Positions 37,613-54,190 of a stretch of DNA of 64,000 nucleotides are shown in pieces. The position numbers were made by a program, and so were the translations under genes. The notes under the pieces were generated by a model that saw only the letters and a list, made by a program, of their open reading frames with translations, was not told the DNA's origin and made no database searches. The first letter of the stretch is position 1. Each line of letters starts with the position of its first letter. Origin of the DNA: Sulfuricella denitrificans (GTDB taxonomy: Bacteria; Pseudomonadota; Gammaproteobacteria; Burkholderiales; Sulfuricellaceae); assembly GCA_002632355.1 (NCBI GenBank), contig NSJJ01000003.1, positions 1-64,000 of the forward strand, written 5' to 3'.

Positions 37613-37618
37613 GCCTGA

Positions 37619-38536: not shown

Positions 38537-38869
38537 TTAGTAACCGCCTTTTCCAAACGGCTTTGGCAAGCCGGCTACTTTGGCGGACTGCCGGTTGGGC
38601 TGCATCGGGAACAGGGTGTACAGGTGCTTTTTCCAGTCGGTGCCGGGATGGTCGGCTTCGAAATCCTTGCACATATTGCGGAAGTTCGGGGTCTGCCCAT
38701 CTTCCTTGTACTTGGTACGCATGTAGTTGACTACCGTCCAGTGTTCGTCAGTCAGTTTGATGCCTTCGGCTTCAGCGATTACGCTGACCACTTCATCGCT
38801 ATAGTCCGGCTCCAGCAGAAAGCCGTCATCATCTACTTCCAGTTCGGTGCCGTTTACGACGTAGCCCAT
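38537..38869 (-). CDS. DsrC/TusE-family protein without redox cysteines
   Basis: A 110-residue protein aligned end to end with the DsrC at 43743: MGYVVNGTELEVDDDGFL, TDEHWTVVNYMR, and the C-terminal KVAGLPKPFGKGGY. The two Cys of the DsrC arm (C98 and C109 in the true DsrC) are replaced by Ala96 and a Gly. The only Cys (about 67) is elsewhere. It cannot form the trisulfide or disulfide of DsrC. DsrC relatives without these cysteines have been described as possible regulators (RspA group). The gene follows the Cas6-like gene and has AAGGAG before ATG. Confidence 0.85.
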   Translation of the reverse strand: MGYVVNGTELEVDDDGFLLEPDYSDEVVSVIAEAEGIKLTDEHWTVVNYMRTKYKEDGQTPNFRNMCKDFEADHPGTDWKKHLYTLFPMQPNRQSAKVAGLPKPFGKGGY

Positions 38870-38911
38870 AGTTTTCTCCTTAGTTAAGGTCGTTGAGTTA
38901 AAAAATTACGC

Positions 38912-39505
38912 TCAAGTAAGCGCGGTTATGGATTTGTGAGGGATGAAAATGCCACAACCAATTTTGCGGTATTTTCCCAGCCCCTGTTGCTGTATCAGTA
39001 ACGAATGCTCCAACGGCAGGCCATGCAGCATGAGGCTGAAGCCACTCACGTTGCCGTCCTGCGTACGGATGGTCTGACGCTTGCCGCAGATGAAGCGGGA
39101 GTCAATTTTCATTTCATCCAGCAGGCGAATAATATCATTGGTGAAGTCTAATTCGTCCTCGCTTCCTGTTGCTACGCAATGTGCAAACAATGGAGTGTGT
39201 TGAGACAGTGGACGCATTTTGCCGGCCCCGATTGTAAGCATGTGGTTGTCAATGTTAATGGTTTTGCCAGTCAGTTGAAGTAACTCAGGTAGACGCGCTG
39301 AGGCAATGCGGATCGTTAGCTTGGTGCGTCGGCTGAGTATTAGCTCCCCGTGTCCGGTGTCAGCTCCGGGAATGGCATGCACCCCACCGAGCGGCTCATC
39401 GGGAAACCAGGGCAGCAAGCGCGCCACTTCGGAATAAAGATAAAAACCATGGTCAATTGGCAGCAAAGTGCCCCTAACGTCGAACTGAACGTCGGTTACA
39501 AGCAA
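38912..39505 (-). CDS. Stand-alone Cas6/Cmx6-like RAMP protein
   Basis: A 197-residue protein with the sequence pattern of the Cas6/Cmx6 family that databases tie to type I-MYXAN CRISPR: VRGTLLPIDHGFYLYSEVAR at the start, LSRRTKLTIRIASARLPELL, then ICGKRQTIRTQDGNVSGFSL and the Gly-rich loop GLGKYRKIGCGIF (about 176-188). Cas6 proteins cut hairpin RNAs at the 3' base. His19 and other His residues are candidates for catalysis but none is proven. No CRISPR repeats or other cas genes occur in the window. First codon TTG, 32 bases after a small unknown gene. The neighbours are sulfur genes; family members of this type occur stand-alone near dsr genes, as far as I recall. Confidence 0.72.
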   Translation of the reverse strand: MLVTDVQFDVRGTLLPIDHGFYLYSEVARLLPWFPDEPLGGVHAIPGADTGHGELILSRRTKLTIRIASARLPELLQLTGKTINIDNHMLTIGAGKMRPLSQHTPLFAHCVATGSEDELDFTNDIIRLLDEMKIDSRFICGKRQTIRTQDGNVSGFSLMLHGLPLEHSLLIQQQGLGKYRKIGCGIFIPHKSITALT

Positions 39506-39537
39506 CTCATCTATGGGTTGAGGGTCCTGATTGTAGC

Positions 39538-39768
39538 TTAGCCAGCCGATTTTGAAACTCCTTGTTCTTGTGTTTTTGCCCAGTCCAGCAAAGCCCTGCC
39601 CCAGTGTTGAGCGGTTTCGCTGTCTATCTCAAATATTGTGAATCGCTTGATCTCACGAATGCGCAACCGCAATGTGCAAAACCCGGCATCGTGATTCACC
39701 TCTTGCAACTCGATCTCCTGTCTGTAGGGTGTCGACAGGAATTTGTCCAAACTTATGAAATCATCCAT
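39538..39768 (-). CDS. Small hypothetical protein next to the Cas6-like gene
   Basis: A 76-residue protein, MDDFISLDKFLSTPYRQEIE, then LRLRIREIKRFTIFEIDSET and a Trp-containing C-terminal helix. It looks like a single compact domain. An open frame extends 37 residues upstream, but the ATG at 39768 fits the visible domain better. I do not recognise a named family. It is the first gene of the minus-strand run opposite dsrA and is probably co-transcribed with the Cas6-like gene. Confidence 0.65.
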   Translation of the reverse strand: MDDFISLDKFLSTPYRQEIELQEVNHDAGFCTLRLRIREIKRFTIFEIDSETAQHWGRALLDWAKTQEQGVSKSAG

Positions 39769-40117
39769 AATAAACTTTTCGTTCTCAATAGTGTTTTGCA
39801 AGATTGTAACGAAATATAGGTTCTGCGCCCGATACTGCAAGGTGTATAACCCATATTGGTAGTGCCGGCATACTCCCAATGGGGTGGTTGGGTACTCCCT
39901 GCTAAGCGCTAGGGTAGCCGTGAAGAATGATGGAAAACGAATGCATAACGGTTGTAGTATTCACCAATCTGCTGGAGTTCAAGCGTGATGACGGTGAATG
40001 GTCGTAAGCACGTGGACGCAGTATTAAGAATCACACAAAAGTTGTAGCATAATTTGAGTCGGCTGCTGCCGGGGAAAGCCGGCATGGTCGGACGTTACTT
40101 TTTTTTGGAGAATATCT
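39769..40117. promoter_or_regulatory. Divergent control region of the dsr operon
   Basis: This 349-base gap separates the Cas6-like run from dsrA. A CATAAT box (40048-40053) with TTAAGA 18 bases upstream is a weak candidate promoter for dsrA. Just downstream TGCCGG/CCGGCA (40067-40084) forms a leader hairpin, followed by an eight-T run (40099-40106) and GGAG before the start codon. No other operator is obvious. Confidence 0.4.
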
Positions 40118-41413
40118 ATGGCTAAGAAATTGCACGATACGCCGATGCTGGACCAGCTTGAGAGTGGCCCGTGGCCCAGTTTTGTTACTGGTCTGAAGCG
40201 CGAAGCCGCTAAAAAAGACATTATGGTTGATCTGTTGGGTCAGCTGGAAACGTCTTACAAGACCAAAAAAGGTTACTGGAAAGGTGGTACGGTGGGTGTG
40301 TTCGGCTATGGTGGCGGCGTGATTCCACGCTTTACCGAGCTGAAGGACGAAAACGAAAACCCGGTATTTCCTGACGCGGCTGAATTCCATACGCTGCGCA
40401 TCCAGCCGCCTGCCGGTATGCACTATGACACCGCCACCCTGCGCAAGTTTGCCGACATCTGGGACAAGTATGGTTCCGGCCTGATCGGACTGCACGGGCA
40501 GTCCGGGGATATCATGATGCAGGGTTGTACAACTGCCAATGTCCAGCCGGCATGGGAAGAAATCAATGCCATGGGTTTCGACATGGGTGGTGCGGGTCCT
40601 GCACTGCGTACTTCCATGTCCTGCGTGGGTGCTGCCCGCTGTGAAATGTCCTGCTTCGACGAGGCCAGGGCTCTGCGCACGATTATTAATGCCAATATTG
40701 ATGACATGCACCGTCCGGCGCTGCCTTACAAGTTCAAGTTCAAGTTCTCTGGCTGCCCTAATGACTGCGTGAACTCCATTCAGCGTTCTGACATGGCTAC
40801 CATCGGCACCTGGCGCGACAACATTCAGGTCAACGAGCAGCAGGCTCGTGACTACATGAAGGGTCACGGCATGGACAAGCTGGTAAACGATGTAATCAGC
40901 AAGTGCCCAACTCGTGCCATTACCTTGCGTAACAAGGCTGATGCCGTATCCGGCGATAGCATTTCTACCGTGGCGGTTGACGACCAGCATGTGATGCAGA
41001 TCGAGAACCACGACTGCGTACGTTGTATGCACTGCCTGAATGTCATGCCTGGCGCATTGCTCCCCGGTAAGGATAAGGGTGTTACCATTCTGGTTGGTGG
41101 TAAGAGCGTGCTGAAGATCGGCGCAACCATGGGTACGGTGATCATCCCGTTCATGAAGCTCGAATCCGACGAAGATTTCGAAAAAATCAATGAAATGTCT
41201 CGCAACATCATCGACTTCTTTGCTGAAAATGCACTGGAGCATGAGCGCACGGGTGAAATGATCGAGCGTATCGGTCTGGTGAATTTCCTCGAGGGTCTGG
41301 ATATCGATGTTGATCCGAACATGATTAATCACCCTCGTGCCAACCCATATGTGCGTATGGACGATTGGGATGAGGAAGTCGAGAAAGCGAACGAGCGCAA
41401 GGCTGCTGCCTGA
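40118..41413 (+). CDS. dsrA: Reverse dissimilatory sulfite reductase, alpha subunit
   Basis: A 431-residue catalytic subunit that, in the oxidative pathway, converts DsrC-bound sulfane sulfur to sulfite in the cytoplasm. Siroheme-[4Fe-4S] ligands are C169, C175 (CVGAARC) and C213, C217 (CPNDC). The inserted ferredoxin domain has C300, C303, C306 with C263. Sequence features and the adjoining dsrEFH and dsrL point to the oxidative type. Good ribosome binding site. It is followed by dsrB after 47 bases. Confidence 0.98.
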   Translation: MAKKLHDTPMLDQLESGPWPSFVTGLKREAAKKDIMVDLLGQLETSYKTKKGYWKGGTVGVFGYGGGVIPRFTELKDENENPVFPDAAEFHTLRIQPPAGMHYDTATLRKFADIWDKYGSGLIGLHGQSGDIMMQGCTTANVQPAWEEINAMGFDMGGAGPALRTSMSCVGAARCEMSCFDEARALRTIINANIDDMHRPALPYKFKFKFSGCPNDCVNSIQRSDMATIGTWRDNIQVNEQQARDYMKGHGMDKLVNDVISKCPTRAITLRNKADAVSGDSISTVAVDDQHVMQIENHDCVRCMHCLNVMPGALLPGKDKGVTILVGGKSVLKIGATMGTVIIPFMKLESDEDFEKINEMSRNIIDFFAENALEHERTGEMIERIGLVNFLEGLDIDVDPNMINHPRANPYVRMDDWDEEVEKANERKAAA

Positions 41414-41460
41414 TCCTGCGTCGAAATTTGTTAATCTAGTGAATATTTGGAGAATAAATA

Positions 41461-42531
41461 ATGGCTGAATTGCGTGCACCTGATGAGTGCGGCGTACCGG
41501 ATCCGATGCCCTTCATGCATCCTACGTTAAGAGATAACTACGGCAAGTGGGTTTTCCATTCGCATCCGAAACCGGGTGTTCTGTATCACCGGGCCGAGAA
41601 CGGCGCTGAAGTATGGACTGTCAAGTTCGGCACTGCCCGTCAACTGGATGGCTACACCATTCGCTTGCTGTGCGACCTGGCTGACAAGCATGCAGATGGG
41701 CATATGCGCTTCACAGCACGTAGCAATGTGGAGTTCATGGTAACTGCCGAGAGCAAGATTGATCCCTTGATCAAGGAATTGAACAGCCATGGATTCCCGG
41801 TGGGTGGTACCGCCAACTCAGTGTCCATGATTTCTCATACTCAGGGTTTCCTGCATTGCGATATTCCTGGAACGGATGCTTCCGGTGTGGTCAAGGCGCT
41901 GATGGATGAATTGCATGAAGAGTTTATCAAGTGCGAGATGCCTAACCGCGTCAAGCTATCAACTTCCTGCTGCGAAATTAACTGCGGCGGCCAAGCGGAT
42001 ATCGCGATTATCATGCAGCATACCAAGCCGCCAAAGATCAATCACGATCTGGTAGCTAACGTTTGCGAGCGCCCTACTGTTGTTGCGCGTTGCCCGGTTG
42101 CGGCTATTCGCCCCGCACTGGTGAATGGCAAGCCTTCTCTGGAAGTGGATGAGAAGAAATGTATCTGCTGCGGCGCTTGTTTCCCTCCTTGCCCACCGAT
42201 GCAGATCAACGATCCTGAACACTCCAAGATTGCAATATGGGTGGGTGGCAAGAACTCCAATGCGCGTTCAAAGCCAACTTTCCACAAGCTGGTTGCTTCG
42301 GGTCTGCCAAACAATCTTCCTCGCTGGCCAGAAGTGGCGGCTGTCGTGAAGAAAATCCTTTCTGTTTACAAGGCTGACGCACAGCCATGGGAACGCATGG
42401 GCGACTGGATCGACCGTATCGGTTGGCCACGTTTCTTCGAAAAAACTGGCCTGCCTTTCACCAAGTATCACATTGATGACTGGCGTGGCGCACGTACTAC
42501 CCTGAATGCCTCGACTCACATCAGGTTCTAA
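41461..42531 (+). CDS. dsrB: Reverse dissimilatory sulfite reductase, beta subunit
   Basis: A 356-residue subunit forming the alpha2beta2 enzyme with DsrA. STSCCEINCGGQADIA (about 167-182) is the siroheme-cluster region; the ferredoxin domain has C234, C237, C240 and C244 (CICCGACFPPC) with C211. DsrB contributes the site where DsrC's C-terminal arm docks. GGAG lies before the ATG. A long hairpin with a T run follows. Confidence 0.98.
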   Translation: MAELRAPDECGVPDPMPFMHPTLRDNYGKWVFHSHPKPGVLYHRAENGAEVWTVKFGTARQLDGYTIRLLCDLADKHADGHMRFTARSNVEFMVTAESKIDPLIKELNSHGFPVGGTANSVSMISHTQGFLHCDIPGTDASGVVKALMDELHEEFIKCEMPNRVKLSTSCCEINCGGQADIAIIMQHTKPPKINHDLVANVCERPTVVARCPVAAIRPALVNGKPSLEVDEKKCICCGACFPPCPPMQINDPEHSKIAIWVGGKNSNARSKPTFHKLVASGLPNNLPRWPEVAAVVKKILSVYKADAQPWERMGDWIDRIGWPRFFEKTGLPFTKYHIDDWRGARTTLNASTHIRF

Positions 42532-42542
42532 TTGGGGTTATT

Positions 42543-42587
42543 CCCTGCCATTGCTTGGTTGCAATGGCAGGGTTTGCTTCTTTTTTG
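42543..42587 (+). terminator. Hairpin with T-rich tail after dsrB
   Basis: A perfect 12-bp stem (42543-42554 with 42561-42572, loop TTGGTT) is followed by TTTGCTTCTTTTTT. This has the form of an intrinsic terminator inside the operon. It probably attenuates transcription so that dsrAB mRNA exceeds the downstream part, or it stabilises the dsrAB 3' end. Confidence 0.7.
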
Positions 42588-42614
42588 TTATATATTGATA
42601 CAGGACATTCAGGG

Positions 42615-42974
42615 ATGAAATTCGGAATATTGATTAATGAGGGGCCATACAATCATCAGGCCTCTGATTCTGCATATCAGTTCTGCAAGGCGGCAATAGA
42701 AAAAGGTCATGAAATTGATCGTGTGTTTTTTTACCATGACGGTGTGAATAACGCGACTAAGCTAACAGAGCCGCCTCAGGACGATCGCAATATCGTTCAG
42801 CGCTGGGGTAAGTTGGCTGAAGAACACAACGTAGACTTGGTGGTGTGTGTTGCAGCTGCATTGCGCCGTGGTATCGTCGAGGAAAATCTTGCCCCAGGGT
42901 TCAGGATTTCAGGCTTGGGTCAGTTGGTTGAGTCCGGCATTCGCTCGGATCGTCTTGTGACTTTTGGCGATTAA
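42615..42974 (+). CDS. dsrE: Sulfur relay protein DsrE
   Basis: A 119-residue DsrE-family subunit of the cytoplasmic DsrE2F2H2 sulfur carrier. The persulfide Cys is at position 78 (VDLVVCVAAALRRG), the same number as in Allochromatium vinosum DsrE. It passes sulfur to DsrC. The ATG at 42615 gives the family length; a longer frame upstream is non-coding. It resembles TusD of the tRNA thiolation relay. Confidence 0.97.
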   Translation: MKFGILINEGPYNHQASDSAYQFCKAAIEKGHEIDRVFFYHDGVNNATKLTEPPQDDRNIVQRWGKLAEEHNVDLVVCVAAALRRGIVEENLAPGFRISGLGQLVESGIRSDRLVTFGD

Positions 42975-42989
42975 GTTAGGGAGTTATTT

Positions 42990-43397
42990 ATGAGTGAAAG
43001 CACGGGAGGTATCGAAATGGAAGAAGACATGTCCGGTACCGTAAAGAAGTTCGCCTTCATTAATCGCAAGGCGCCATATGGAACGATCTATGCTCTCGAA
43101 TCGCTTGAGGTTGTGCTGATCAGCGCTGCATTTGACCAGGATGTAAGCTTGGTTTTTGCAGATGATGGCGTGTACCAGCTTAAAAAAGGGCAGGCGACAA
43201 AAGCGGTAGGGATGAAGAATTTTTCACCAACTTATCGCGCGCTTGAAGGCTACGACATCGAAAAGCTCTATGTCGAGAAAGAATCCATGGAGGCCCGAGG
43301 CCTTACCGCTGACGATCTGATCGTTGACGTGGAAGTGCTGGATGCCGCTGAAATGGCTGCGTTGCTCGAAGAGCAAGACGTGGTTCTGAGTTTCTAA
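42990..43397 (+). CDS. dsrF: Sulfur relay protein DsrF
   Basis: A 135-residue DsrE/F-fold subunit (KKFAFINRKAPYGTIYALES, FADDGVYQLKKGQ, and the C-terminal VLDAAEMAALLEEQDVVLSF). It carries no essential Cys and acts as a structural part of DsrEFH, like TusC. It starts with a short acidic, Met-rich stretch (residues 1-14), so an internal ATG is possible. Seven bases separate it from dsrH. Confidence 0.96.
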   Translation: MSESTGGIEMEEDMSGTVKKFAFINRKAPYGTIYALESLEVVLISAAFDQDVSLVFADDGVYQLKKGQATKAVGMKNFSPTYRALEGYDIEKLYVEKESMEARGLTADDLIVDVEVLDAAEMAALLEEQDVVLSF

Positions 43398-43404
43398 GAA
43401 GGGG

Positions 43405-43710
43405 ATGCAGATGTTGCACATCGTGAATAAATCGCCGCTGGAAAGAAATGCTTTTGACGGCGCCTTGCGCATGGCTAAGCCGGGTAGCACCATTCTTTTG
43501 ATCGAAGATGCTGTCTATGCGGTAACAAAGGGTAATAAAGCCGAAGGCCAGCTAAAAGAGGCCATGAAGAACTGCTCCGTATGCGCGCTATGGCCGGATC
43601 TGGAAGCACGCGGCATGCAGGATACCGTGATCGACGGTATTAAGCAGGTGGACTACAACGGTTTCGTGGATCTGGTGGCAGAGAGCAAATCCGTGATGTC
43701 TTGGTTGTAA
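43405..43710 (+). CDS. dsrH: Sulfur relay protein DsrH
   Basis: A 101-residue TusB-like subunit of DsrEFH (LHIVNKSPLERNAFDGALRM, LLIEDAVYAVTKG, DYNGFVDLVAESKSVMSWL). The Cys that is conserved at position 20 of A. vinosum DsrH is missing: NKSPLERNAFDGALRM has Gly/Ala there, and no Cys occurs before C57 and C60. Start at 43405 or, two codons later, 43411. Confidence 0.95.
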   Translation: MQMLHIVNKSPLERNAFDGALRMAKPGSTILLIEDAVYAVTKGNKAEGQLKEAMKNCSVCALWPDLEARGMQDTVIDGIKQVDYNGFVDLVAESKSVMSWL

Positions 43711-43742
43711 TTGCAACGCTTTTGATTATTTAGGAGAAACAT

Positions 43743-44075
43743 ATGGGCTTCGAAATTAACGGTAAGACTTATGAAACGGACGAAGAAGGTTACTTGGTTA
43801 ACCTGGCAGAGTGGGACGAAGAAGCTGCCAAGTTCCTGGCCATCGAAGAAAAAGTAGAGATGACAGATCAGCACTGGGAAGTCATCAATTTCCTGCGCGA
43901 GTACTATAACGACTACCAGATCGCTCCGGCGGTGCGGGTTCTGACCAAGGCTATCGGCAAGAAACTTGGGCCTGAGAAAGGAAACAGCAAGTATCTGTAC
44001 GAACTGTTCCCATATGGCCCAGCCAAGCAAGCGTGTAAGATTGCTGGCCTGCCTAAACCAACCGGCTGTATCTAA
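43743..44075 (+). CDS. dsrC: DsrC, sulfur-carrier substrate of DsrAB
   Basis: A 110-residue protein that carries sulfur as a persulfide or trisulfide and feeds DsrAB and the DsrMKJOP complex. The C-terminal arm YGPAKQACKIAGLPKPTGCI holds both redox cysteines, C98 and the penultimate C109. Strong ribosome binding site (GGAG). It stands last in the EFHC block, before a long hairpin. Confidence 0.98.
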   Translation: MGFEINGKTYETDEEGYLVNLAEWDEEAAKFLAIEEKVEMTDQHWEVINFLREYYNDYQIAPAVRVLTKAIGKKLGPEKGNSKYLYELFPYGPAKQACKIAGLPKPTGCI

Positions 44076-44090
44076 GCAATAAAGCAAGGC

Positions 44091-44141
44091 GAATTCACGA
44101 ATGACCGTATTCCTTTGGTAATGCGGTCATCTCCTGAATTC
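44091..44141 (+). other. Long hairpin between dsrC and dsrM
   Basis: The arm from 44091 (GAATTCA, then ATGACCG and TATT) pairs with the arm ending 44141 (CGGTCAT, TGAATTC), giving about 20 paired bases with a CCTTTGG-like loop. No T run follows, so it is more likely an mRNA-stability or processing element than a terminator. Confidence 0.65.
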
Positions 44142-44197
44142 CCAAGAATAACTACGGCAAGCGTTGCTTGCTGAACGAACTACTCCAGGGGATGTAC

Positions 44198-44947
44198 ATG
44201 TCGTTTCTGACCGTACTGTTTGCGTACCTATTTTACGCAGCCACCGCAATCTTGGTGGGCGGACTTTTTTTTAAGATCCGCACTTATGCCCGCACGCCGG
44301 CGCCTTTGAAGATTCCAACTACGCCGGCTCCAATTACAAAAACCGGCGTGGTTTTGCGCATGACGCGTGAAGTAACCCTGTTCGAAAGCCTGTTCAAATC
44401 TAACAAATGGATCTGGCTGTTTGGCTATCTATTTCACGTTTCGCTTTTGCTGGTAACATTGAGGCACTTGCGCTATTTCACAGAGCCGGTTTGGTTTCCA
44501 GTAGAAATGATCCAGCCTTTTGGTATGTATGCTGGATTTGCTATGGTGGCGGGCCTTGGAGGACTCTGGGCAAGGCGCTTTCTTGTCGATAGGGTGAGAT
44601 ATATTTCAACGCCGTCTGACCATTTGATCCTTGCCCTTTTGGTCGCTATCGGCTTGTCCGGTTTGGGAATGAGCTTTGTTGCGCACACAGATATTGTGGC
44701 AGTTAAGGCATTCATTCTTGGCTTGATGGTTTTCGATTTGCATCCCTTACCTGCAGATCCTGTTTTGCTGGTACATCTTTCGTTAGTCGCTTTGCTGATG
44801 TTTATCTTTCCAATTAGCAAGCTGCTACATGCACCAGGTATTTTCTTCAGCCCGACGCGTAATCAGGTTGACGATCCGCGTGACCGGCGTCATATAGCCC
44901 CGTGGGCTGCAAAACTGGAAGCCGGTGCTCAGGGCAAATCGGAGTAA
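44198..44947 (+). CDS. dsrM: DsrM, heme-b membrane subunit
   Basis: A 249-residue NarI-like integral membrane protein with about five helices, which carries heme b and exchanges electrons with quinone. Together with DsrK it links DsrC oxidation to the membrane. I took the ATG at 44198 (MSFLTVLFAYLFY) because AGGGG stands before it; earlier TTG (44168) and ATG (44192) codons add up to ten residues. It begins the MKLJOP block. Confidence 0.93.
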   Translation: MSFLTVLFAYLFYAATAILVGGLFFKIRTYARTPAPLKIPTTPAPITKTGVVLRMTREVTLFESLFKSNKWIWLFGYLFHVSLLLVTLRHLRYFTEPVWFPVEMIQPFGMYAGFAMVAGLGGLWARRFLVDRVRYISTPSDHLILALLVAIGLSGLGMSFVAHTDIVAVKAFILGLMVFDLHPLPADPVLLVHLSLVALLMFIFPISKLLHAPGIFFSPTRNQVDDPRDRRHIAPWAAKLEAGAQGKSE

Positions 44948-44986
44948 TCAACATGCAGGTATATTTGAAAGTTAGCAGGAGGAATA

Positions 44987-46558: not shown

Positions 46559-46629
46559 TTTTTTTACGTATAGTGCATGCGCCATTGGGCGTACGCCACT
46601 CAATATTTGTAGATTAGGAGATTTAATAC

Positions 46630-48636
46630 ATGTCCGCCTCATCCGAAGAAATGAAAGACACGAAACTGAACTACCGCCGTTACAAGGACGGACAGAACCC
46701 CAATGACTGGCGTCAGCTGCAGGACAAGATTTTTCAGGCCGGCTGGACCCACAAGTGTCCGGAGTATGTGCTTTCTACACCACCCTGCCAGGGGAGTTGT
46801 CCGGCCGGTGAGGATATTCGTGGTTATCTCGATATCGCACGTGGGGTTGAAAAGCCGCCCAAAGACAGCAATTGGCAAACATATGCTTTCCAGCGCATTA
46901 CTCAGGCAAACCCATTTCCTTCTGTTATGGGTCGTGTTTGCCCTGCCCCTTGCGAAAGTGGCTGTAACCGTAATCAGGTTGATGACTTTGTCGGCATTAA
47001 TTCTGTCGAACACTTTGTTGGCGATTACGCGATTGCAAACAAACTTACCCTGCCACAGGCAGGTGCCAGCACAGGAAAGAAAGTTGCACTGATTGGTGGC
47101 GGTCCTGCTTCTATGTCCGCAGCTTACCAATTGCGGCTCAAGGGCCACGCATGCACGATTTTTGATGACCATGCCCATCTTGGCGGTATGATGCGTTACG
47201 GCATTCCTGGTTTCCGTACGCCACGCGATGTTCTTGATGCAGAAATCCAGCGCATTATTGATCTTGGTGTTGAAGTTAAGCTTAATACCCGGATTGGCGT
47301 TGATGTCACCCTTGAACAATTGGAAAAAAACTACGATGCTATTTTCCTTGGCATGGGTGCGCAATCAGGTCGCATGTTGCCTGTCCCCGGTTTTGATACG
47401 CCAAACTGCGTAAACGCAATGGCTTTTCTACGCGCATTTAACGACGGGCGTCTACAGCACGTTGGTAAGCGTGTTGTTGTTATCGGTGGTGGCGATACAT
47501 CAATTGACGTTGCAACGGTTGCCCGTCGTCTGGGTAACATCACGGTTGCAACCGAATCTGACCGCCCGGAACACATTATTGCAGGCCAAGTCGCCCATGA
47601 TGTGGCGGCAGTTTCTGCACGGGAAGGTGCTGAGGTTATTCTGGTTTCCCGTTCGACAATTGACAAGATGAATGCCAATAAGCATGAAATTGATCAGGCG
47701 CTGGCAGAAGGTATTGAAATCATTGGCGGAGTGACGCCGATTTCCGTTGTCAAGGGTACGGATGGCCGTGCTACAGCATTGCGTGTGGCTGAGTTCGATG
47801 TTGTTAAGGGTGAGACAGTCATCAAGGCCGGAACTGAAAAAGATATTCCCGCTGATCTGATCGTCTCCGCAATTGGTCAGGCTGTGGATTTCACGGGCTT
47901 TGACGGTTTCGACAACGGTAAAGGTTTGATCAACGCAAATAAAAATTACGAAGTGCCTAATAAGAAGGGTTACTTCGTAGGCGGCGACGTAATTCGCCCA
48001 CATTTGCTGACCACGGCGATCGGTCACGGGTCGATTGCAGCAGAGAGTATTGACATCTATCTGAAGGGTGAAGCGCAGGACAAGCGTCCTAAGATCGACG
48101 TTCATCACTGGGACTTGGTACGCAAGTTGATTGAAACGGAACATGCACCCGTTGAGTTCAAGTCGACAGCAAAGGAAGAGATTGCAAAGACTGAGGGTTA
48201 TGCCAAGGAAATCGACCTGGGTGTGCGTGGTACCGATAGCAACAAGTTCGCTGTACACAATTTTGAAGACCGATCCGACAAATATGTGATTCCATCGAAT
48301 GAATTGTTCCTTGGGCATTTCCCGTTCGTTGCCCGTAACGTTCGTGAACACATCACCCTGAACGCAGAACAGGCTCTTGGCCACTTCGAAGAACGTCTGA
48401 TGAAACTGGATGACAAGCAGGTGGTGGCTGAAGCCAAGCGCTGCATGAGCTGCGGGCTGTGCTTTGAATGCGACAACTGCGTTGTTTACTGTCCTCAAAC
48501 TGCTGTGTTCAAAGTTAAGCGTACTGACTCGACAACTGGTCGCTATGTTGATACTGACTATTCGAAGTGCATCGGCTGCCATATTTGCGCAGACGTATGT
48601 CCAACCGGTTATATCAAAATGGGTATGGGTGAGTAA
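46630..48636 (+). CDS. dsrL: DsrL, NAD(P)H:acceptor oxidoreductase
   Basis: A 668-residue cytoplasmic flavoprotein like the GltD/NfnB group. It has an N-terminal Fe-S region (CPEYVLSTPPCQGSCPAGED, about 39-58), FAD Rossmann motif KVALIGGGPASMSAAYQL (about 154-171), NAD(P) motif VVVIGGGDTSIDVATVARRL (about 282-301) and two C-terminal ferredoxin clusters (CMSCGLCFECDNC; CIGCHICADVCPTGY). DsrL takes electrons from DsrAB and reduces NAD(P)+, and is the hallmark of oxidative Dsr systems. A short stem (about 46575-46599) precedes it. Confidence 0.97.
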   Translation: MSASSEEMKDTKLNYRRYKDGQNPNDWRQLQDKIFQAGWTHKCPEYVLSTPPCQGSCPAGEDIRGYLDIARGVEKPPKDSNWQTYAFQRITQANPFPSVMGRVCPAPCESGCNRNQVDDFVGINSVEHFVGDYAIANKLTLPQAGASTGKKVALIGGGPASMSAAYQLRLKGHACTIFDDHAHLGGMMRYGIPGFRTPRDVLDAEIQRIIDLGVEVKLNTRIGVDVTLEQLEKNYDAIFLGMGAQSGRMLPVPGFDTPNCVNAMAFLRAFNDGRLQHVGKRVVVIGGGDTSIDVATVARRLGNITVATESDRPEHIIAGQVAHDVAAVSAREGAEVILVSRSTIDKMNANKHEIDQALAEGIEIIGGVTPISVVKGTDGRATALRVAEFDVVKGETVIKAGTEKDIPADLIVSAIGQAVDFTGFDGFDNGKGLINANKNYEVPNKKGYFVGGDVIRPHLLTTAIGHGSIAAESIDIYLKGEAQDKRPKIDVHHWDLVRKLIETEHAPVEFKSTAKEEIAKTEGYAKEIDLGVRGTDSNKFAVHNFEDRSDKYVIPSNELFLGHFPFVARNVREHITLNAEQALGHFEERLMKLDDKQVVAEAKRCMSCGLCFECDNCVVYCPQTAVFKVKRTDSTTGRYVDTDYSKCIGCHICADVCPTGYIKMGMGE

Positions 48637-48639
48637 ACA

Positions 48640-49161
48640 ATGGTCAGCCTGGCAAAACTGCGCGTGGTGCTGAACTGGCAGCGGGGCGGCCTGCTGGCTG
48701 CTTTGCTGGCTTTGGGCGCCTTCGCGACGGCATCAGTAAATGCCCATGAGAGTACTCCTGCTGGTCGCGTGGCGTTGCCCGTTCATGCAGAGGCATCTGG
48801 TGATAAATGCGTAAGAGATACCTCGTACATGAAGCGACACCACATGGACGAACTCAAGCATCACCGCAAGGAGACCATGCGCAAGGGCATTCGGACAACA
48901 GAGTTCAGCTTGCAGGGGTGCATTAATTGCCACGCTGATAAGAAAACCAATAGCGTTCTTGGCAAGGAAGGGTTCTGCCAGAGTTGCCACTCTTATGCGG
49001 CTGTGAAGCTAGATTGTTTTGAATGCCACGCCAGTAAACCAAAAGCAGCAACGGCATTAAGCAGCATGCCGGCATCCAGTGCAGACACGCCCGCAATAAT
49101 GCCGCAGCAAGTACAGGCCGAGTCTGTCGATCTCAATTCAACAGGCGGGGTAAGGAAATGA
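48640..49161 (+). CDS. dsrJ: DsrJ, triheme cytochrome c
   Basis: A 173-residue periplasmic cytochrome with an N-terminal signal or anchor helix (about 17-35). Heme sites are CINCH (94-98), CQSCH (113-117) and CFECH (126-130). C57 (DKCVRDTSYMKRHHMDE) corresponds to the Cys that serves as an unusual axial heme ligand in A. vinosum. It overlaps dsrO by four bases. A 40-residue Ala/Ser-rich tail follows the last heme. Confidence 0.95.
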   Translation: MVSLAKLRVVLNWQRGGLLAALLALGAFATASVNAHESTPAGRVALPVHAEASGDKCVRDTSYMKRHHMDELKHHRKETMRKGIRTTEFSLQGCINCHADKKTNSVLGKEGFCQSCHSYAAVKLDCFECHASKPKAATALSSMPASSADTPAIMPQQVQAESVDLNSTGGVRK

Positions 49162-49916
49162 GTAACAGTATGGACAAAACCCCTGAAAATAACTCACCTG
49201 ATAAAAAACGCCGTCAATTCATTGGGTATAGCGCTGCCATGGCTGGATTGGCGATAGCGCCTGGTGTTACCTTGTTTGATCTGGCCCATGGCCGCGCTCC
49301 GGAAGAAGCAGCATCAAGCAAAGTGCGCTGGGGCATGTTAATTGACAGCGGAAAGTGTGCGAGTGGGTGCAATGATTGCGTTTCGGCTTGCGGTACGGAA
49401 AATGGCTTTTCCGGATCTCGTGAGACAGATTCACAGTGGATACGCAAAGTGGAAATCAAGGATTTGCGTATCGGTCAATCGCATAGCCTGCCTATGATGT
49501 GCCAGCATTGCGAGCACCCTCCTTGTGTCGATGTCTGCCCAACAGGGGCTTCATTCAAACGCGCTGATGGGATCGTGCTGGTGGACCGCCACATCTGTAT
49601 CGGTTGCCGTTATTGCATGATGGCTTGTCCATACAAGGCGCGTTCGTTTGTGCATGAAGAGTTGCACGATCAGAACCCAGATGTGCCACGAGGTAAAGGT
49701 TGCGTTGAATCTTGCACATTATGTGTGCACCGTATCGATCGCGGAGGCCAACCTGCTTGTGCGGATGCGTGTACTGCAGCCGGACATAATGCAATCCTGT
49801 TTGGAGATCTGAATGATCCAAACAGTGAAATTTCCAAACGCGTTGCGACGCTTGCGACAACTCAGGTGCGAGCTGATCTGGGACTTAATGTTGGCGTTCG
49901 TTATCAGGGAATCTAA
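49158..49916 (+). CDS. dsrO: DsrO, periplasmic iron-sulfur protein
   Basis: A 252-residue ferredoxin-like protein of the DmsB/HybA type. The Tat signal KKRRQFIGYSAAMAGLAIAP (about 16-35) sends it to the periplasm. Four [4Fe-4S] motifs are visible: CASGCNDCVSAC, CQHCEHPPCVDVCP, CIGCRYCMMACP and CTLCVHRIDRGGQPACAD. It relays electrons between DsrJ and DsrP. Confidence 0.96.
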   Translation: MSNSMDKTPENNSPDKKRRQFIGYSAAMAGLAIAPGVTLFDLAHGRAPEEAASSKVRWGMLIDSGKCASGCNDCVSACGTENGFSGSRETDSQWIRKVEIKDLRIGQSHSLPMMCQHCEHPPCVDVCPTGASFKRADGIVLVDRHICIGCRYCMMACPYKARSFVHEELHDQNPDVPRGKGCVESCTLCVHRIDRGGQPACADACTAAGHNAILFGDLNDPNSEISKRVATLATTQVRADLGLNVGVRYQGI

Positions 49917-49921
49917 GCGAC

Positions 49922-51124
49922 ATGAATATTGAAGCGTTTCGTAAAATTGAGGGGCAAGCGTTTTATGCACTTGCCGGGTTGCTTGGACTGGTTGTCCTGA
50001 TTGGGTTTGGGGCTGCTCACTATATGGAAACCCATGGGCACGTCGTAACAGGGATGACCAATCAGATTGTCTGGGGTCTGCCGCATGTTTTTGCGGTATT
50101 CATGATTGTAGCTGCATCAGGTGTCCTAAATGTTGCATCAATCGGTTCAGTGTTTGGCAAACCAGTATATAAGGCTCGCGCACCCCTTTCCGGTTTGCTT
50201 GCAATAGCCTTGCTTGCCGGTGGTTTGACCGTTCTTATGCTGGATTTGGGACGGCCTGACCGGTTGATTGTTGCTATGACGCACTTCAACTTCAAGTCAA
50301 TTTTTGCGCTCAACGTCATACTTTATACTGGATTTTTTGCAATTGTGGCAGTCTATATCTGGACTATGATGGAGAGAAAAATGCATGCATATTCCAAATA
50401 TGCGGGTTTTTCTGCTTTTATCTGGCGCTTGGCACTGACCACGGCTACCGGATCTATCTTTGGGTTTCTGGTGGCACGACAAGCTTATAGTTCAGCAATT
50501 CTGGCCCCGATGTTTATCATCATGTCCTTCTCCTACGGACTGGCAGTTTTCATTCTTGTACAGTCGTTCATGTATTTATGGAACGGACTTGAGCTTGACC
50601 CAGCTATTCTGCGCCGCATGAAAAATCTTCTGGCAACTTTTGCTGGAGCAGTGCTTTACTTCACAATCGTATATCACCTGACAAACTTGTATTTCGCCAA
50701 GCAAGCCGCATTTGAACAGTTTATTCTAGTTGATGGCGGGATCTTCACTACGCTGTTTTGGGTAGGACAGATTTTTATCGGCACGCTGATTCCAATTGCT
50801 CTTTTGCTACATCCTACTCTCGGTGCTAATTGTAAAACTGTTATCTGGTCAGCGCTTCTGATTGTCGTAGGTGGTTTTGCGCAACTATATGTAATCATAA
50901 TTGGGGGGCAGGCATTCCCTCTTGAGTTGTTCCCAGGGATGCAGGAATCCAGCACTTTTTTTGATGGCGCAATTCATTACTACCATCCAAGCCTTCCAGA
51001 ACTACTTTTGGGTATTGGCGGTATCGGAATGGCATTGTTGATAACCACTATCGCAGTAAGAGTTTTGCGCTTTATTCCTCAGGATGATTTTCATCATGTC
51101 AGCAAGGAAGCATTGACCGATTAA
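49922..51124 (+). CDS. dsrP: DsrP, NrfD-like membrane subunit
   Basis: A 400-residue integral membrane protein with about ten helices, family NrfD/PsrC. It probably reduces or oxidises quinone on the periplasmic side. Typical charged loop residues (LDLGRPDRLIVAMTHFNFKS) are present near residues 105-124. Last gene of the MKLJOP block; a long hairpin follows. Confidence 0.95.
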   Translation: MNIEAFRKIEGQAFYALAGLLGLVVLIGFGAAHYMETHGHVVTGMTNQIVWGLPHVFAVFMIVAASGVLNVASIGSVFGKPVYKARAPLSGLLAIALLAGGLTVLMLDLGRPDRLIVAMTHFNFKSIFALNVILYTGFFAIVAVYIWTMMERKMHAYSKYAGFSAFIWRLALTTATGSIFGFLVARQAYSSAILAPMFIIMSFSYGLAVFILVQSFMYLWNGLELDPAILRRMKNLLATFAGAVLYFTIVYHLTNLYFAKQAAFEQFILVDGGIFTTLFWVGQIFIGTLIPIALLLHPTLGANCKTVIWSALLIVVGGFAQLYVIIIGGQAFPLELFPGMQESSTFFDGAIHYYHPSLPELLLGIGGIGMALLITTIAVRVLRFIPQDDFHHVSKEALTD

Positions 51125-51142
51125 ACCAGGAAATTCTCGGTC

Positions 51143-51216
51143 TAACCCGAAGCACACCAAAGGTAGGAGCGCTACTTGATTAGCCTCTTAACATTGCCTC
51201 AGGTGGCTTCGGGTTA
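51143..51216 (+). other. Long nested hairpin between dsrP and dsrN
   Basis: TAACCCGAAGC (51143-51153) and its neighbours pair with the reverse complement ending 51216 (GGTGGCTTCGGGTTA) over 14-15 bases. The interior holds an inner stem around GTAG...CTAC. No T run follows. It may be a structured leader of dsrN or a processing element. Confidence 0.65.
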
Positions 51217-51240
51217 ATTATTTCTGGAACTCTTTAATCC

Positions 51241-52647
51241 ATGTCTCGTTTGCTTATCTCAGCAGCACACAAGTCCTCAGGTAAAACCACTGTCAGTATC
51301 GGTTTGTGTTCTGCGTTTACACAGCGTGGACTCAAAGTACAGCCTTATAAGAAGGGTCCTGATTATATCGATCCAATGTGGTTAGGCGCAGCAACAGGCC
51401 GCCCATGCCGTAATCTGGATTTTTACCTTATGGAGCCTGACGAGATACTTGACTCGGTTCGGCAACATTCAATCAGTGCTGATCTAAGCCTGATCGAGGG
51501 AAATAAAGGCCTGTATGACGGGCTTGATCTTAATGGCAGTAACAGCAATGCCGCTCTTGCAAAATTGCTACATGCACCCGTGGTTCTGGTGATCGACGCA
51601 CGAGGTATGACGCGTGGCATCGCGCCACTCATTCTGGGTTACCAGGCTTTTGATCCAGAAATACGCATCGCAGGCGTCATTCTCAACAACCTTGGCGGTG
51701 CGAGGCATGAAAGTAAATTGAGGGCGGTGATTGAACATTATACGGATATCCCGGTGTTGGGAGCCGTGCATCACGACACTCGATTACAGATAACCGAAAG
51801 ACACCTGGGCTTGATGCCAAGTAATGAATCTAGCGTGGCTTTGCAACATATTAGCGAAATTGGTCAGTTGGTCGGAGCTCAGGTAGACCTCGATGCCTTG
51901 ATTAAAATTGCGGATAGCGCGCCGTCGATAGGCGAAAGCCTCAATCAAGACCACAAGCCGATAGAGCTTGCGCCCACTGCAATAAAAGTCCGGATTGGCG
52001 TGGCAAAGGATCAGTCGTTTGGTTTTTATTACGCCGATGATCTGCAGGCTATGCAAGTGGCGGGCGCAGAAATCATTAATATTGATACGCTTCGAGATCA
52101 TGAGTTACCTGATCAACTTGATGGTTTATTTATTGGCGGAGGTTTTCCTGAGCTTTTTATGGAACGGCTGGAAAGTAATTCCACGCTGCGCCAGCAAATG
52201 CGTGACGCCATTGAGAATGGGCTACCAACGTATGCGGAGTGTGGGGGATTAATGTATCTTGCCCGGAGTTTGTCGTGGCAGGGGAAAACCTGCAAAATGG
52301 TCGGAGTGATTCCTGGTGATGTGGTAATGCACGGCAAACCAGTTGGCCGGGGTTATGTTCGTGTACGATCGACCGGAAACTGTCCTTGGCCAGATGAGAT
52401 CGCGGGCAGGGAATTGCTTGCACATGAATTTCACTATTCAAGCTTGGAAAATGTAGATTCTGACCTCAAATATGCGTTTGAAGTCGAACGTGGACATGGT
52501 ATCGACGGCCAATCCGATGGCATCGTCTACAAGAACCTGCTTGCCTGCTACACGCATTTTCGCTCGCTTCGTGGTTATAACTGGGCGGGTCGCTTTGTGG
52601 ATTTTGTTCGGGAAGTTAAGGCTGCAGGGCCGCAGCCACATCAGTAA
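51241..52647 (+). CDS. dsrN: DsrN, siroheme amide-forming (CobB/CbiA-like) synthase
   Basis: A 468-residue amidotransferase like cobyrinic acid a,c-diamide synthase. The P-loop is AAHKSSGKTTVSIGL (residues 8-22) and the C-terminal glutaminase half has YAECGGLMYLA (Cys about 334). In A. vinosum DsrN supports amidation of siroheme for DsrAB. Start ATG; weak ribosome binding site behind the hairpin. It sits 21 bases before dsrR. Confidence 0.93.
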   Translation: MSRLLISAAHKSSGKTTVSIGLCSAFTQRGLKVQPYKKGPDYIDPMWLGAATGRPCRNLDFYLMEPDEILDSVRQHSISADLSLIEGNKGLYDGLDLNGSNSNAALAKLLHAPVVLVIDARGMTRGIAPLILGYQAFDPEIRIAGVILNNLGGARHESKLRAVIEHYTDIPVLGAVHHDTRLQITERHLGLMPSNESSVALQHISEIGQLVGAQVDLDALIKIADSAPSIGESLNQDHKPIELAPTAIKVRIGVAKDQSFGFYYADDLQAMQVAGAEIINIDTLRDHELPDQLDGLFIGGGFPELFMERLESNSTLRQQMRDAIENGLPTYAECGGLMYLARSLSWQGKTCKMVGVIPGDVVMHGKPVGRGYVRVRSTGNCPWPDEIAGRELLAHEFHYSSLENVDSDLKYAFEVERGHGIDGQSDGIVYKNLLACYTHFRSLRGYNWAGRFVDFVREVKAAGPQPHQ

Positions 52648-52668
52648 TGACTAATTAAGGAGAATTAT

Positions 52669-53031
52669 ATGGTAAAAGTAACCGCTGAGGCCGTTGTGCA
52701 AATCCAGAATGCTGCAGGTCAGGCCGGTGCTGAGGGCATGGCGTTGAGAATTGCCGCCAAGCGTGATTTTGATGGCTCCATCCAATACGGAATGGGCTTT
52801 GATGAGCAAGCGGATGATGACATGCTGATCGACGCTGAAGGGATTCAGGTTCTGGTAGCAAAGCAAAGCCAGCCACTTCTGAATGGCGCTGTGCTCGACT
52901 TTGTTGAAATGAGCCCGGGAAATTTCCAATTTATATTTATCAACCCCAATGACACTGCCGGCTCATCTTGTGGCAGTTCCTCTGGAAGCTCCGGTGGCGG
53001 ATGTGGTGGTTGTGGAGGCGGTTGCCATTAA
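52669..53031 (+). CDS. dsrR: DsrR, A-type HesB-like protein with Cys/Gly tail
   Basis: A 120-residue HesB/IscA-like protein. The IscA Cys near residue 35 is absent (AAKRDFDGS), and the usual C-terminal CGCG motif is replaced by a Gly/Ser/Cys-rich tail (CGSSSGSSGGGCGGCGGGCH). A. vinosum DsrR lacks the IscA cysteines and acts in post-transcriptional control of dsr. The tail here carries four Cys and a final His, so metal binding is possible. AAGGAG precedes the ATG. Confidence 0.88.
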   Translation: MVKVTAEAVVQIQNAAGQAGAEGMALRIAAKRDFDGSIQYGMGFDEQADDDMLIDAEGIQVLVAKQSQPLLNGAVLDFVEMSPGNFQFIFINPNDTAGSSCGSSSGSSGGGCGGCGGGCH

Positions 53032-53040
53032 CGCTGTCTG

Positions 53041-53106
53041 CAGTTAAGCCGTTTGACCTCAGCGTCATTGGCAGTGGGCGAGGTGATTTCAAGACGGCTT
53101 TAACTG
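53041..53106 (+). other. Long hairpin after dsrR
   Basis: CAGTTAAGCCGTTTGA (53041-53056) pairs with the reverse complement ending 53106 (TCAAGACGGCTTTAACTG) with one bulge, plus CCTC/GAGG inside. It lies ten bases after the dsrR stop and probably marks the 3' end of the operon. Confidence 0.6.
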
Positions 53107-53183
53107 TGACCAGCTTTCGGGTTTCGTCCTGCCTTGATTGAATAGAAGGTTTTCCGGGTGGTTCGCGGAAGATTGTAAAGGAA

Positions 53184-53372
53184 ATGGTACAACTGCGGCT
53201 TGAGGGTCAGGAAGCGTATGACTTAAACGGCGATTCGTCGTGTCCATATTGGCATACACCGACCCTCGCATCTGCTGGTTCGCGAAACCATGCTGATGTT
53301 GTGCTAGAAGCTTACATTAACCAGTTTCATCGGGAGAAACGAAGGTCACGGTTCTTCGGATTTCTGTTTTAG
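53184..53372 (+). CDS. Possible small protein with CPY motif
   Basis: A 62-residue frame, MVQLRLEGQEAYDLNGDSSC, then PYW and a basic aromatic C terminus. The spacing EAY...G...CPY recalls ribosome modulation factor and CrpP-like small proteins, but the downstream Trp is missing. GGA is only two bases before ATG. The end overlaps the lipoprotein gene on the other strand by 27 bases. Weak evidence. Confidence 0.35.
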   Translation: MVQLRLEGQEAYDLNGDSSCPYWHTPTLASAGSRNHADVVLEAYINQFHREKRRSRFFGFLF

Positions 53373-54178: not shown

Positions 54179-54190
54179 ACAGGATTATAT

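Follow-up and report, generated by a model that had tools for sequence, protein, structure and literature searches.

Cas6 is the crRNA-processing ribonuclease of CRISPR immune systems. Why does a gene of this family lie opposite the dsr genes of Sulfuricella denitrificans, and does it serve immunity or sulfur oxidation? In the window (i.e., the whole stretch of 64,000 nucleotides that was analyzed), cas6 belongs to a minus-strand run opposite dsrABEFHCMKLJOPNR, a run in which we took the gene names from synteny and general knowledge (Table 1). The initial annotation had reported that cas6 is divergent from the dsr operon, which was borne out, with one small DUF6967 gene separating cas6 from dsrA.

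Table 1. Positions of features in the dsr region of the window
Feature	Positions	Strand	Evidence
Conserved 191-aa all-helical protein	37037-37612	-	AlphaFold2 pLDDT 89.4; usable homolog in 74/80 named loci
Rhodanese/3-mercaptopyruvate sulfurtransferase-like protein	37619-38494	-	PF00581; NF008557 below cutoff; synteny in most, not all, loci
dsrC2, DsrC paralog without C-terminal cysteines	38537-38869	-	PF04358, E 6.6e-32; C terminus GKGGY
cas6, Cas6-family protein of the dsr-linked clade	38912-39505	-	197 aa; Pfam, NCBIfam, and PADLOC; AlphaFold2; PDB match; residues
Small DUF6967 protein at the head of the divergent operon	39538-39879	-	PF22295, E 2.3e-27; synteny in most, not all, loci
Divergent promoter region common to cas6 run and dsrA	39880-40117		Alignments; conserved block 39914-39931
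dsrA, first gene of the dsr run (to 53031)	40118-41413	+	ORFs; TIGR02064, E 9.4e-153 in this genome
dsrB-dsrE border hairpin	42534-42580	+	-30.6 kcal, z -4.7, 0/200 shuffles; position conserved
dsrC-dsrM border hairpin	44088-44143	+	-40.2 kcal, z -5.2, 0/200 shuffles
dsrP-dsrN border hairpin	51126-51227	+	-44.0 kcal, z -5.14, 0/200 shuffles; 3 other loci compared
Hairpin after dsrR, weaker	53033-53114	+	-48.3 kcal, z -2.04, 5/200 shuffles

Family, fold, and residues of the Cas6-like protein

The gene starts with TTG, and the sole Pfam match of its product was PF09559 Cas6 (208.8 bits, cutoff 26.7; E 9e-62). The NCBIfam model TIGR02807 cas6_cmx6 was also matched well above its cutoff (156.7 versus 98.85 bits). 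The AlphaFold2 model (pLDDT 94.4) showed the Cas6 fold, aligning over its whole length (197 residues; Z 26.3, rmsd 1.9 Å) with 8fcj_B, the Cas6 of a type I-B CAST. Residues 172 to 191, near the C terminus, form the Gly-rich loop QQQGLGKYRKIGCGIFIPHK. These results confirmed the description of a Cas6/Cmx6-like protein with such a loop that had been made from the window alone.

The dsr-linked proteins, which shared 30 to 87% identity with that of the window, formed one clade separate from CRISPR Cas6 (SH-aLRT 99) in a tree built on 86 of the 169 sequences collected. Loop residues G175, G177, G183, and G185 were found in 159 to 160 of 161 dsr-linked proteins. R60, R66, and E118 were invariant (161/161), G141 nearly so (160/161), and the basic residues R180 and K191 were kept in 141 and 157, respectively; the window protein has H19, R60, R66, E118, and G141. 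His19, which we take to be the catalytic histidine from its position at the start of helix 1 in other Cas6 enzymes, was present in 122 of the 161. The other 39 had N, Y, S, or D there; cutting is thus not common to all members of the clade. Sulfuricella and Thiobacillus proteins tend to differ at this residue, a Thiobacillus protein being a natural Asn/Ser19 variant, and 8fcj Cas6 has N at the equivalent position.

Besides family, fold, and Gly-rich loop, the dsr-linked proteins have in common with CAST and cyanobacterial type I-MYXAN Cas6/Cmx6 proteins a DHG/DNG-like motif before helix 1. They differ from this comparison set in that 39 of 161 lack His19. E118, G141, and a near-invariant H190-K191 pair are specific to the clade and absent from six CRISPR Cas6 proteins; six cyanobacterial plasmid copies conserved neither these residues nor R60. 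Furthermore, cas3 and cas8/cmx8 were adjacent at all six of the cyanobacterial loci, whereas the dsr clade shows no CRISPR link.

The replacement of His19 and the clade-specific residues would both fit a protein that kept the Cas6 fold, gave up work on RNA, and became a protein adaptor (e.g., a scaffold for DsrC2 or DsrEFH). We consider such a change of function unlikely, given that the Gly-rich loop, R60, R66, R180, and K191 are retained and that the full-length structural match is to a Cas6 whose structure was determined as part of a Cascade complex.

Distribution of cas6 relative to dsrA and CRISPR

Among 250 genomes of the order, 46 encoded cas6 and 51 dsrA (49 above the cutoff and 2, G008 and G178, with fragments), and cas6 was found in 46 of the 51 dsrA genomes but in none of the other 199 (Fisher 5e-45). 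In a class sample of 274 genomes, 91 had cas6, 94 had dsrA (87 above the cutoff and 7 with fragments), and 87 had both; cas6 occurred in 87 of 94 dsrA genomes versus 4 of 180 others (Fisher 2e-57). Both Fisher values overstate independence because the genomes are related. In both samples, cas6 thus had the distribution of a reverse-Dsr accessory gene, present in nearly all dsrA genomes and rare otherwise. A phylum sample (219 genomes) yielded one Cas6 match, the Sulfuricella genome itself; the dsrA counts cover the order and class samples.

Linkage was mostly divergent. In the order sample, cas6 lay divergently on the dsrA contig in 46 of 46 cases (median gap, 622 bp), as did 65 of 66 same-contig pairs of the class sample, all 65 within 4.6 kb. 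In the class sample, at least nine genomes (G295, G305, G320, G360, G439, G442, G456, G487, and G501) carried cas6 deep within a contig other than that of dsrA, and therefore the association is not one of synteny alone. The gene was also retained in reduced genomes of 1.0 to 1.6 Mb (G302, G404, G516, G371, and G487).

Twelve dsrA genomes had no cas6. Three of these (G102, G150, and G232) had enough flanking sequence to be true losses, eight were poorly covered, and G473 fell into neither group. In the eight (G012, G140, G333, G342, G372, G385, G469, and G499), the region upstream of dsrA was missing, shorter than about 2 kb, or seemingly cut, or the assembly was very incomplete. Conversely, the four class genomes with cas6 and no dsrA (G330, G356, G389, and G448) had cas6 on a short contig or less than 1 kb from a contig end; G330 carried a dsrB fragment, and the other three had no strong dsrB match.

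The gene was independent of CRISPR. Cas1 was not enriched in the cas6 genomes of the order sample (15/46 versus 80/204 others; odds ratio 0.75, p 0.50). The genome-wide cas searches covered Cas1 and Cas3: Cas3 did not exceed its cutoff in any of the 31 cas6-positive, cas1-negative genomes of the order sample, the Sulfuricella genome included, and the latter (3.09 Mb, 100% complete) had no Cas1 match. No CRISPR-like array was found in the window, in agreement with the initial annotation. Taken with the Cas1 and Cas3 results, this speaks against occurrence of the gene in a cas operon or with CRISPR. The expectation that cas6 would go with dsr rather than with CRISPR was upheld, as 46 of 46 cas6 genomes of the order sample and 87 of 91 of the class sample had dsrA. 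A search for phage-borne copies gave 34 stretches with the pattern in viral_contigs, none of which was confirmed.

The Pfam and NCBI models label the protein as CRISPR-associated, which would suit a mobile gene or a remnant of CRISPR that came to lie beside dsr by chance. As a general account this is refuted, and we give it almost no credence: presence tracks dsrA and not Cas1 or Cas3, and the gene has been retained across the range of identities given above and in reduced genomes. Because the window protein exceeds the TIGR02807 cutoff, automatic annotation is likely to label such genes "type I-MYXAN CRISPR-associated Cas6/Cmx6" and to mislead CRISPR surveys of sulfur oxidizers. The near-constant companionship of cas6 and dsr, the genes by which many sulfur oxidizers consume stored sulfur, points to a nonimmune, RNA-level role in the sulfur cycle.

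Hairpins at the dsr module borders

Of the long hairpins initially placed after dsrB, dsrC, dsrP, and dsrR, the first three exceeded all shuffles and the last was weaker (Table 1). The core stem of the dsrB-dsrE hairpin (42543-42572) is followed by a T-rich tail. At three borders (dsrA-dsrB, dsrB-dsrE, and dsrC-dsrM), we counted perfect stems of 8 bp or more and used dinucleotide shuffles as the control. Only loci with both flanking genes were counted; second dsrA copies standing alone and clusters truncated by contig ends were excluded. A count that allowed interior loops was too loose, as shuffled sequences gave as much in 56/102 and 64/95 cases. Across loci, hairpins at all three borders were far above shuffles, and the dsrC-dsrM stem was found in 56 of 68 betaproteobacterial and 15 of 18 gammaproteobacterial loci. 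The hairpins are thus fixed in position at the borders tested. Among eight genus members, the 5' arms were only 22% (dsrB-dsrE) and 29% (dsrC-dsrM) identical and pairing was preserved, which bears out the initial description of hairpins alike in structure and not in sequence. No Rfam family matched positions 36000 to 55000 at E values up to 1.

The initial annotation proposed that Cas6 processes dsr mRNA at these hairpins, by cleavage at their 3' base, which would yield module-specific mRNA levels. The abundance of hairpins above shuffles and the His19 of the window protein and most others agree with this proposal. At the cas6-loss clusters, perfect stems were absent from dsrA-dsrB (0/3) and dsrB-dsrE (0/2), with all three borders lacking a hairpin in G102, and the reduced genome G371 has both cas6 and the dsrC-dsrM stem. 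It also fits a passage in PMC3397948 (citing Grimm 2010), by which dsrEFH and dsrC transcript levels in Allochromatium are above that of dsrA.

In most tests, however, hairpins and cas6 dissociated. Three other reduced genomes kept cas6 and had no hairpin at any tested border (0/3 at each), and 15 of 18 gammaproteobacterial loci with cas6 had no perfect dsrB-dsrE stem. Where Cas6 lacked His19, the hairpin was kept at dsrC-dsrM in 19 of 20 loci and at dsrB-dsrE in 20 of 21 (32 of the 39 loci were used, 7 being short or without a dsr operon, and the spacer was present in 20 to 24 of the 32). The dsrC-dsrM hairpin persisted in two of the three cas6 losses. Finally, stem sequences turned over completely inside one genus, whereas the repeats usually recognized by Cas6 enzymes do not fully turn over. 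Cutting at the border hairpins is therefore not supported as a general account and is unlikely, and its use to set mRNA levels module by module is very unlikely. The RNA target of Cas6 would be something other than these hairpins, or not these alone.

The hairpins themselves are likely to be ordinary intercistronic stabilizers or partial terminators, with stoichiometry set by exonucleases and RNA polymerase and Cas6 uninvolved. Conserved position, free sequence, and a large degree of independence from the Cas6 state all favor this, as does the terminator-like score of the dsrB-dsrE stem and tail (in a scan that gave 21 sites overall versus 17.0 in shuffles). This explanation accounts for the hairpins alone and not for cas6, and it is compatible with an accessory role of the protein elsewhere. 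A photosynthetic counterpart is the puf operon, which has an intercistronic mRNA hairpin at a module border; the dsr hairpins are similarly stable and conserved in structure without sequence, but they lie opposite a Cas6-family gene and yet are untied to it in most cases tested. In Allochromatium, dsrC has its own promoter, according to a passage in PMC3368242, which also suits the stabilizer or terminator explanation.

The hairpin comparisons yielded no RNA target of Cas6, and several other elements of the dsr region were examined and set aside. A hairpin in the dsrA 5' untranslated region (stem of at least 6 bp) was only modestly above shuffles (betaproteobacterial loci, 41/85 versus 25.8 expected; gammaproteobacterial loci, 5/18 versus 4.6; cas6 losses, 3/3 versus 1.2). 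A second short hairpin with conserved sequence, before dsrM, was confined to the genus. An 18-base block of the divergent region occurred in 23 of 254 loci, all from genus members, and near dsr in 3 genus genomes among 20 searched; its single exact match in a viral contig, where no protein matched those of the dsr region, is likely due to chance. Separately, covariation in the dsrA 5' hairpin was seen by eye within the genus.

The DsrC paralog and a possible role in sulfur oxidation

Downstream of cas6, dsrC2 ends in GLPKPFGKGGY and belongs with the DsrC proteins without C-terminal cysteines. A KGGY-ended DsrC lay downstream of cas6 at 143 of 161 distinct loci. A search made without requiring KGGY found a downstream DsrC at 138 of 161, with both cysteines absent in 138 of 138, versus both present in 99 of 101 opposite-strand DsrC proteins (not deduplicated). 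By the KGGY search, G324 had cas6 without such a DsrC, and G232 had such a DsrC without cas6. The paralog shares family PF04358 with TusE and with known cysteine-less DsrC paralogs of the "RspA" type, and differs from them in often adjoining Cas6 and in its KGGY terminus. A literature search on cysteine-less DsrC returned unrelated papers only.

On balance, we favor the view that the dsr-linked protein is an ex-CRISPR Cas6, long separated from immunity, that has become a dedicated RNA-binding accessory of reverse Dsr in Gammaproteobacteria (including the former Betaproteobacteria) and that adjusts Dsr posttranscriptionally with the DsrC paralog. It would bind a specific RNA and, where His19 is kept, probably also cut it. 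Together with the cysteine-less paralog, which may be a DsrC look-alike reporting the state of DsrC or DsrEFH, it would tune Dsr expression or assembly at a posttranscriptional stage. A Cas6 clade that tracks dsrA in Gammaproteobacteria and persists even where the genome is only about 1 Mb implies an overlooked component of a main route of biological sulfur oxidation and an RNA-level step in a pathway so far studied mainly through its enzymes.

More tentatively, and with rather low probability, the former CRISPR RNA-processing enzyme could be the RNA arm of sulfur-flux control: Cas6 would hold a dedicated RNA, the KGGY DsrC would act as a mimic of the DsrC substrate toward DsrEFH or DsrAB, and the two proteins together would couple sulfur supply to Dsr expression. 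If so, a Cas protein would have been domesticated for core energy metabolism, class-wide, in rDsr-type sulfur oxidizers.

Two minor observations concern neighbors and relatives. The all-helical protein (37037-37612) matched no Pfam family and no PDB entry at E ≤ 0.001. A Gloeobacter plasmid Cas6 (L230) resembles the dsr-linked proteins in being of the PF09559 type and in having no further cas gene among those annotated over 6.6 kb; unlike them, it clusters with CRISPR proteins and lies beside PAPS-reductase-like and cupin genes.

The Cas6-family gene and its neighborhood

The Cas6/Cmx6-like character that the initial annotation gave to the gene divergent from the dsr operon was confirmed. The sole Pfam match of the 197-aa product is Cas6 (PF09559; 208.8 bits), its score exceeds the cutoff of the NCBI cas6_cmx6 equivalog model, and the PADLOC call agrees. 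The nearest solved sequence is a type I-B CAST Cas6 (8fcj; E = 8e-19), and 8fcj_B matches the AlphaFold2 model of the window protein (pLDDT 94.4, pTM 0.89; alignment of 53 sequences) over 197 aligned residues (Z 26.3; 1.9 A; Foldseek E = 1.5e-16).

The minus-strand run is ordered DUF6967, cas6, dsrC2, rhodanese, and a helical protein. Scanning one public genome collection with the window protein yielded 190 relatives, and 80 loci were retained. Relatives whose titles name a genus are mostly sulfur oxidizers (Sulfuricella, Sulfurimicrobium, Sulfuriferula, Thiobacillus, Hydrogenophilus, and Tepidiphilus); one is labeled Rhizobium. Among the matches listed, the arrangement recurs in most loci, DUF6967 or rhodanese is missing from some, and a weak match (locus L028) has none of the run's genes. 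The helical protein, for which 74 of the 80 named dsr loci have a usable homolog, matches no Pfam family and, at E <= 0.001, no PDB structure. In the divergent promoter region, GGGTAG/TACYCC half-sites recur by eye in Sulfuricella and Thiobacillus; with the long conserved block, they look like a candidate operator common to the cas6 run and dsr.

Features of the window, with coordinates and strand
Coordinates	Strand	Feature	Remarks
7647-7733		perfect tandem array	unit TTCGGATAG, 9.7 copies
37037-37612	-	191-aa protein	all-helical
38537-38869	-	dsrC2	DsrC paralog without C-terminal cysteines
38912-39505	-	cas6	PF09559
39880-40117		divergent region	between cas6 run and dsr
39914-39931		conserved block	GTAGCCGYGAAGAATGAT, in 8/8 genus genomes
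from 40118	+	dsr operon	dsrABEFHCMKLJOPNR

Association with dsr and separation from CRISPR

In the order sample (250 genomes), PF09559 was found in 46 genomes and dsrA in 51; the latter count comprises 49 genomes over the cutoff and two with strong fragments (G008 and G178), weaker sulfite-reductase matches being excluded. All 46 cas6 genomes carry dsrA, in every case divergent from cas6 on the same contig, with gaps of 416 to 4,969 bp (median, 622). Five families (f11, f20, f24, f34, and f48) each include some genomes that carry both genes and others that carry neither, and the tie is therefore not the synteny of one lineage. In the class sample (274 genomes), cas6 was found in 91 genomes, and dsrA in 94 (87 over the cutoff and 7 with fragments); 87 genomes carry the two together. 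Same-contig pairs number 66: in 65 the genes are divergent and at most 4.6 kb apart (median, 1.7 kb), and in the remaining one they are 41 kb apart. In at least nine genomes, cas6 lies well inside a contig other than that of dsrA, which is nonetheless present. With both samples pooled and the window's own genome counted once, dsrA is present in 132 of 136 cas6 genomes and cas6 in 132 of 144 dsrA genomes. The 12 exceptions among the latter include three real losses and eight cases limited by contig ends or incompleteness. The phylum sample (219 genomes, scored for cas6 only) gave no match beyond the own genome.

Cas1 is not enriched, occurring in 15 of 46 cas6 genomes versus 80 of 204 others in the order sample (odds ratio, 0.75; p = 0.50). 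None of the 31 cas6 genomes without Cas1 in this sample has Cas3 over the cutoff; the matches in 30 of them reach at most 47 bits against a cutoff of 102. The 64-kb window contains no CRISPR-like array, and no Cas1 match was obtained in the own genome, which spans 3.09 Mb and is 100% complete. Thus, the suggested check favored co-occurrence with dsr over that with CRISPR, and the reported absence of CRISPR from the window held. Six plasmid-borne relatives, our CRISPR reference, adjoin cas3 and cas8/cmx8. In a tree of 86 of the 169 sequences in hand, built by a quick method, the dsr-linked proteins make up one side of a branch (SH-aLRT, 99). Because both the Cas6 grouping and the dsrA score of one order genome (G256, locus L149) resemble those of the class sample, its sequences suggest a possible joint transfer of cas6 and dsr.

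On a Gloeobacter morelensis plasmid (L230), a PF09559-type Cas6 adjoins PAPS-reductase-like and cupin genes, with no other cas gene annotated within the 6.6 kb shown. Several genomes (L240-L245 and L251-L254) hold a second dsrA, joined by dsrB in L251-L254, that lacks cas6 and the greater part of the operon.

Hairpins at the operon borders

Perfect stems (8 bp or longer) were counted in primary clusters of cas6 genomes, with expectations from dinucleotide shuffles; "beta" denotes order-sample and "gamma" class-sample loci. Stems exceeded expectation between dsrC and dsrM (beta, 56/68, 17.8 expected; gamma, 15/18, 1.7 expected), dsrB and dsrE (57/74, 10.4 expected; 3/18, 0.8 expected), and dsrA and dsrB (39/74, 6.6 expected; 9/18, 1.1 expected), which bears out their conserved position among relatives. 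Counts were low at dsrH-dsrC (1/57; 1/18), dsrM-dsrK (3/60; 0/17), and dsrK-dsrL (8/61; 4/18). For the dsrP-dsrN and dsrR hairpins, the comparison covered at most three loci. As previously proposed, the hairpins share structure and not sequence: among eight genus members, the arms are 22 to 29% identical, with three to six pair types per stem position, although in a few rows the automatic picker selected a minor stem. The stems are therefore kept as structure, or renewed, at fixed places. The pattern fits Allochromatium transcript levels, in which, in the available part of PMC3397948, dsrEFH and dsrC exceed dsrA. In a dsr operon without cas6 (G150, L238), large intergenic hairpin repeats appear MITE-like by eye.

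The initial annotation had proposed that the cas6 product cuts dsr mRNA at these hairpins, and stems and cas6 would therefore be expected to accompany each other. This expectation was mostly not borne out. In three reduced genomes (G302, G404, and G516; 1.0 to 1.1 Mb), cas6 is kept with stems in 0/3 at each of the three borders, and the perfect dsrB-dsrE stem is missing from 15 of 18 gamma loci. Stems are more frequent where Cas6 lacks the presumed catalytic His19 than in other beta loci (not de-duplicated): 19/20 versus 44/59 for dsrC-dsrM, 20/21 versus 45/64 for dsrB-dsrE, and 19/24 versus 21/64 for dsrA-dsrB. Clusters that lost cas6 retain the dsrC-dsrM stem in 2/3 (0.7 expected by shuffling). 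In favor of cutting, these clusters have no perfect dsrA-dsrB (0/3) or dsrB-dsrE (0/2) stem, one of them (G102) has no stem at any of the three borders, and a fourth reduced genome (G371; 1.4 Mb) retains the dsrC-dsrM stem. Because losses and reduced genomes are few, the cutting model is only weakened.

Conserved residues and the cysteine-less DsrC partner

R60, R66, and E118 are invariant across 161 distinct dsr-clade sequences, and G141 (160/161), K191 (157/161), and H190 (151/161) are nearly so; the six CRISPR reference proteins show no conservation of R60, E118, G141, H190, or K191. His19 lies where helix 1 begins, the place of the catalytic His in other Cas6 enzymes; it is present in 122/161 and replaced by N, Y, S, or D in 39/161, many from Thiobacillus relatives. 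Thus, the Gly-rich loop, R60, R66, and K191 are better conserved than His19.

In 143/161 loci, cas6 is followed at a distance of no more than 1.5 kb by a DsrC paralog with a KGGY C terminus, a count that requires KGGY. Without this requirement, a downstream DsrC was found at 138/161 loci, and both cysteines are absent in 138/138; the opposite-strand DsrC has both in 99/101 (not de-duplicated). Ten whole genomes were searched for the KGGY DsrC. Six of them have cas6 but no adjacent copy; five of the six (G277, G360, G371, G442, and G494) have one elsewhere, and none was found in the sixth (G324); in G389, it adjoins cas6. Where cas6 was lost, it is also absent from G102 and G150, and one copy is retained in G232.

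The dsr-dedicated Cas6 clade is probably RNA-binding and would act jointly with the cysteine-less DsrC to control the Dsr system or to assemble it. TusE hands sulfur to the tRNA-bound enzyme MnmA, and by this analogy the pairing of a DsrC-fold protein with an RNA-binding protein is plausible. Among the literature matches listed, which covered few subscription papers, none linked Cas6 with dsr or sulfur by title or abstract. In the available parts of PMC5728499, PMC10952691, PMC7540712, PMC5944118, and PMC8889020, Cas6 appears solely in CRISPR contexts, and those of PMC6397845, PMC4287430, and PMC3368242 describe dsr genes without mentioning Cas6. The available part of PMC5944118 also reports DNA binding by Allochromatium DsrC upstream of dsr.

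In Gammaproteobacteria, the cas6 run often extends to a TauD/TfdA-like dioxygenase as well as small proteins of unknown family. Among 48 loci, the cas6-dsrC2 companions (L188-L226) include the dioxygenase in 25, a 64-aa protein in 23, a 67-aa protein in 16, and a hydroxylase-like protein, named by eye, in 8. In G528 (L223), cas6-dsrC2 adjoins dsrEFHCMKLJOP, and dsrA was found on a separate contig.
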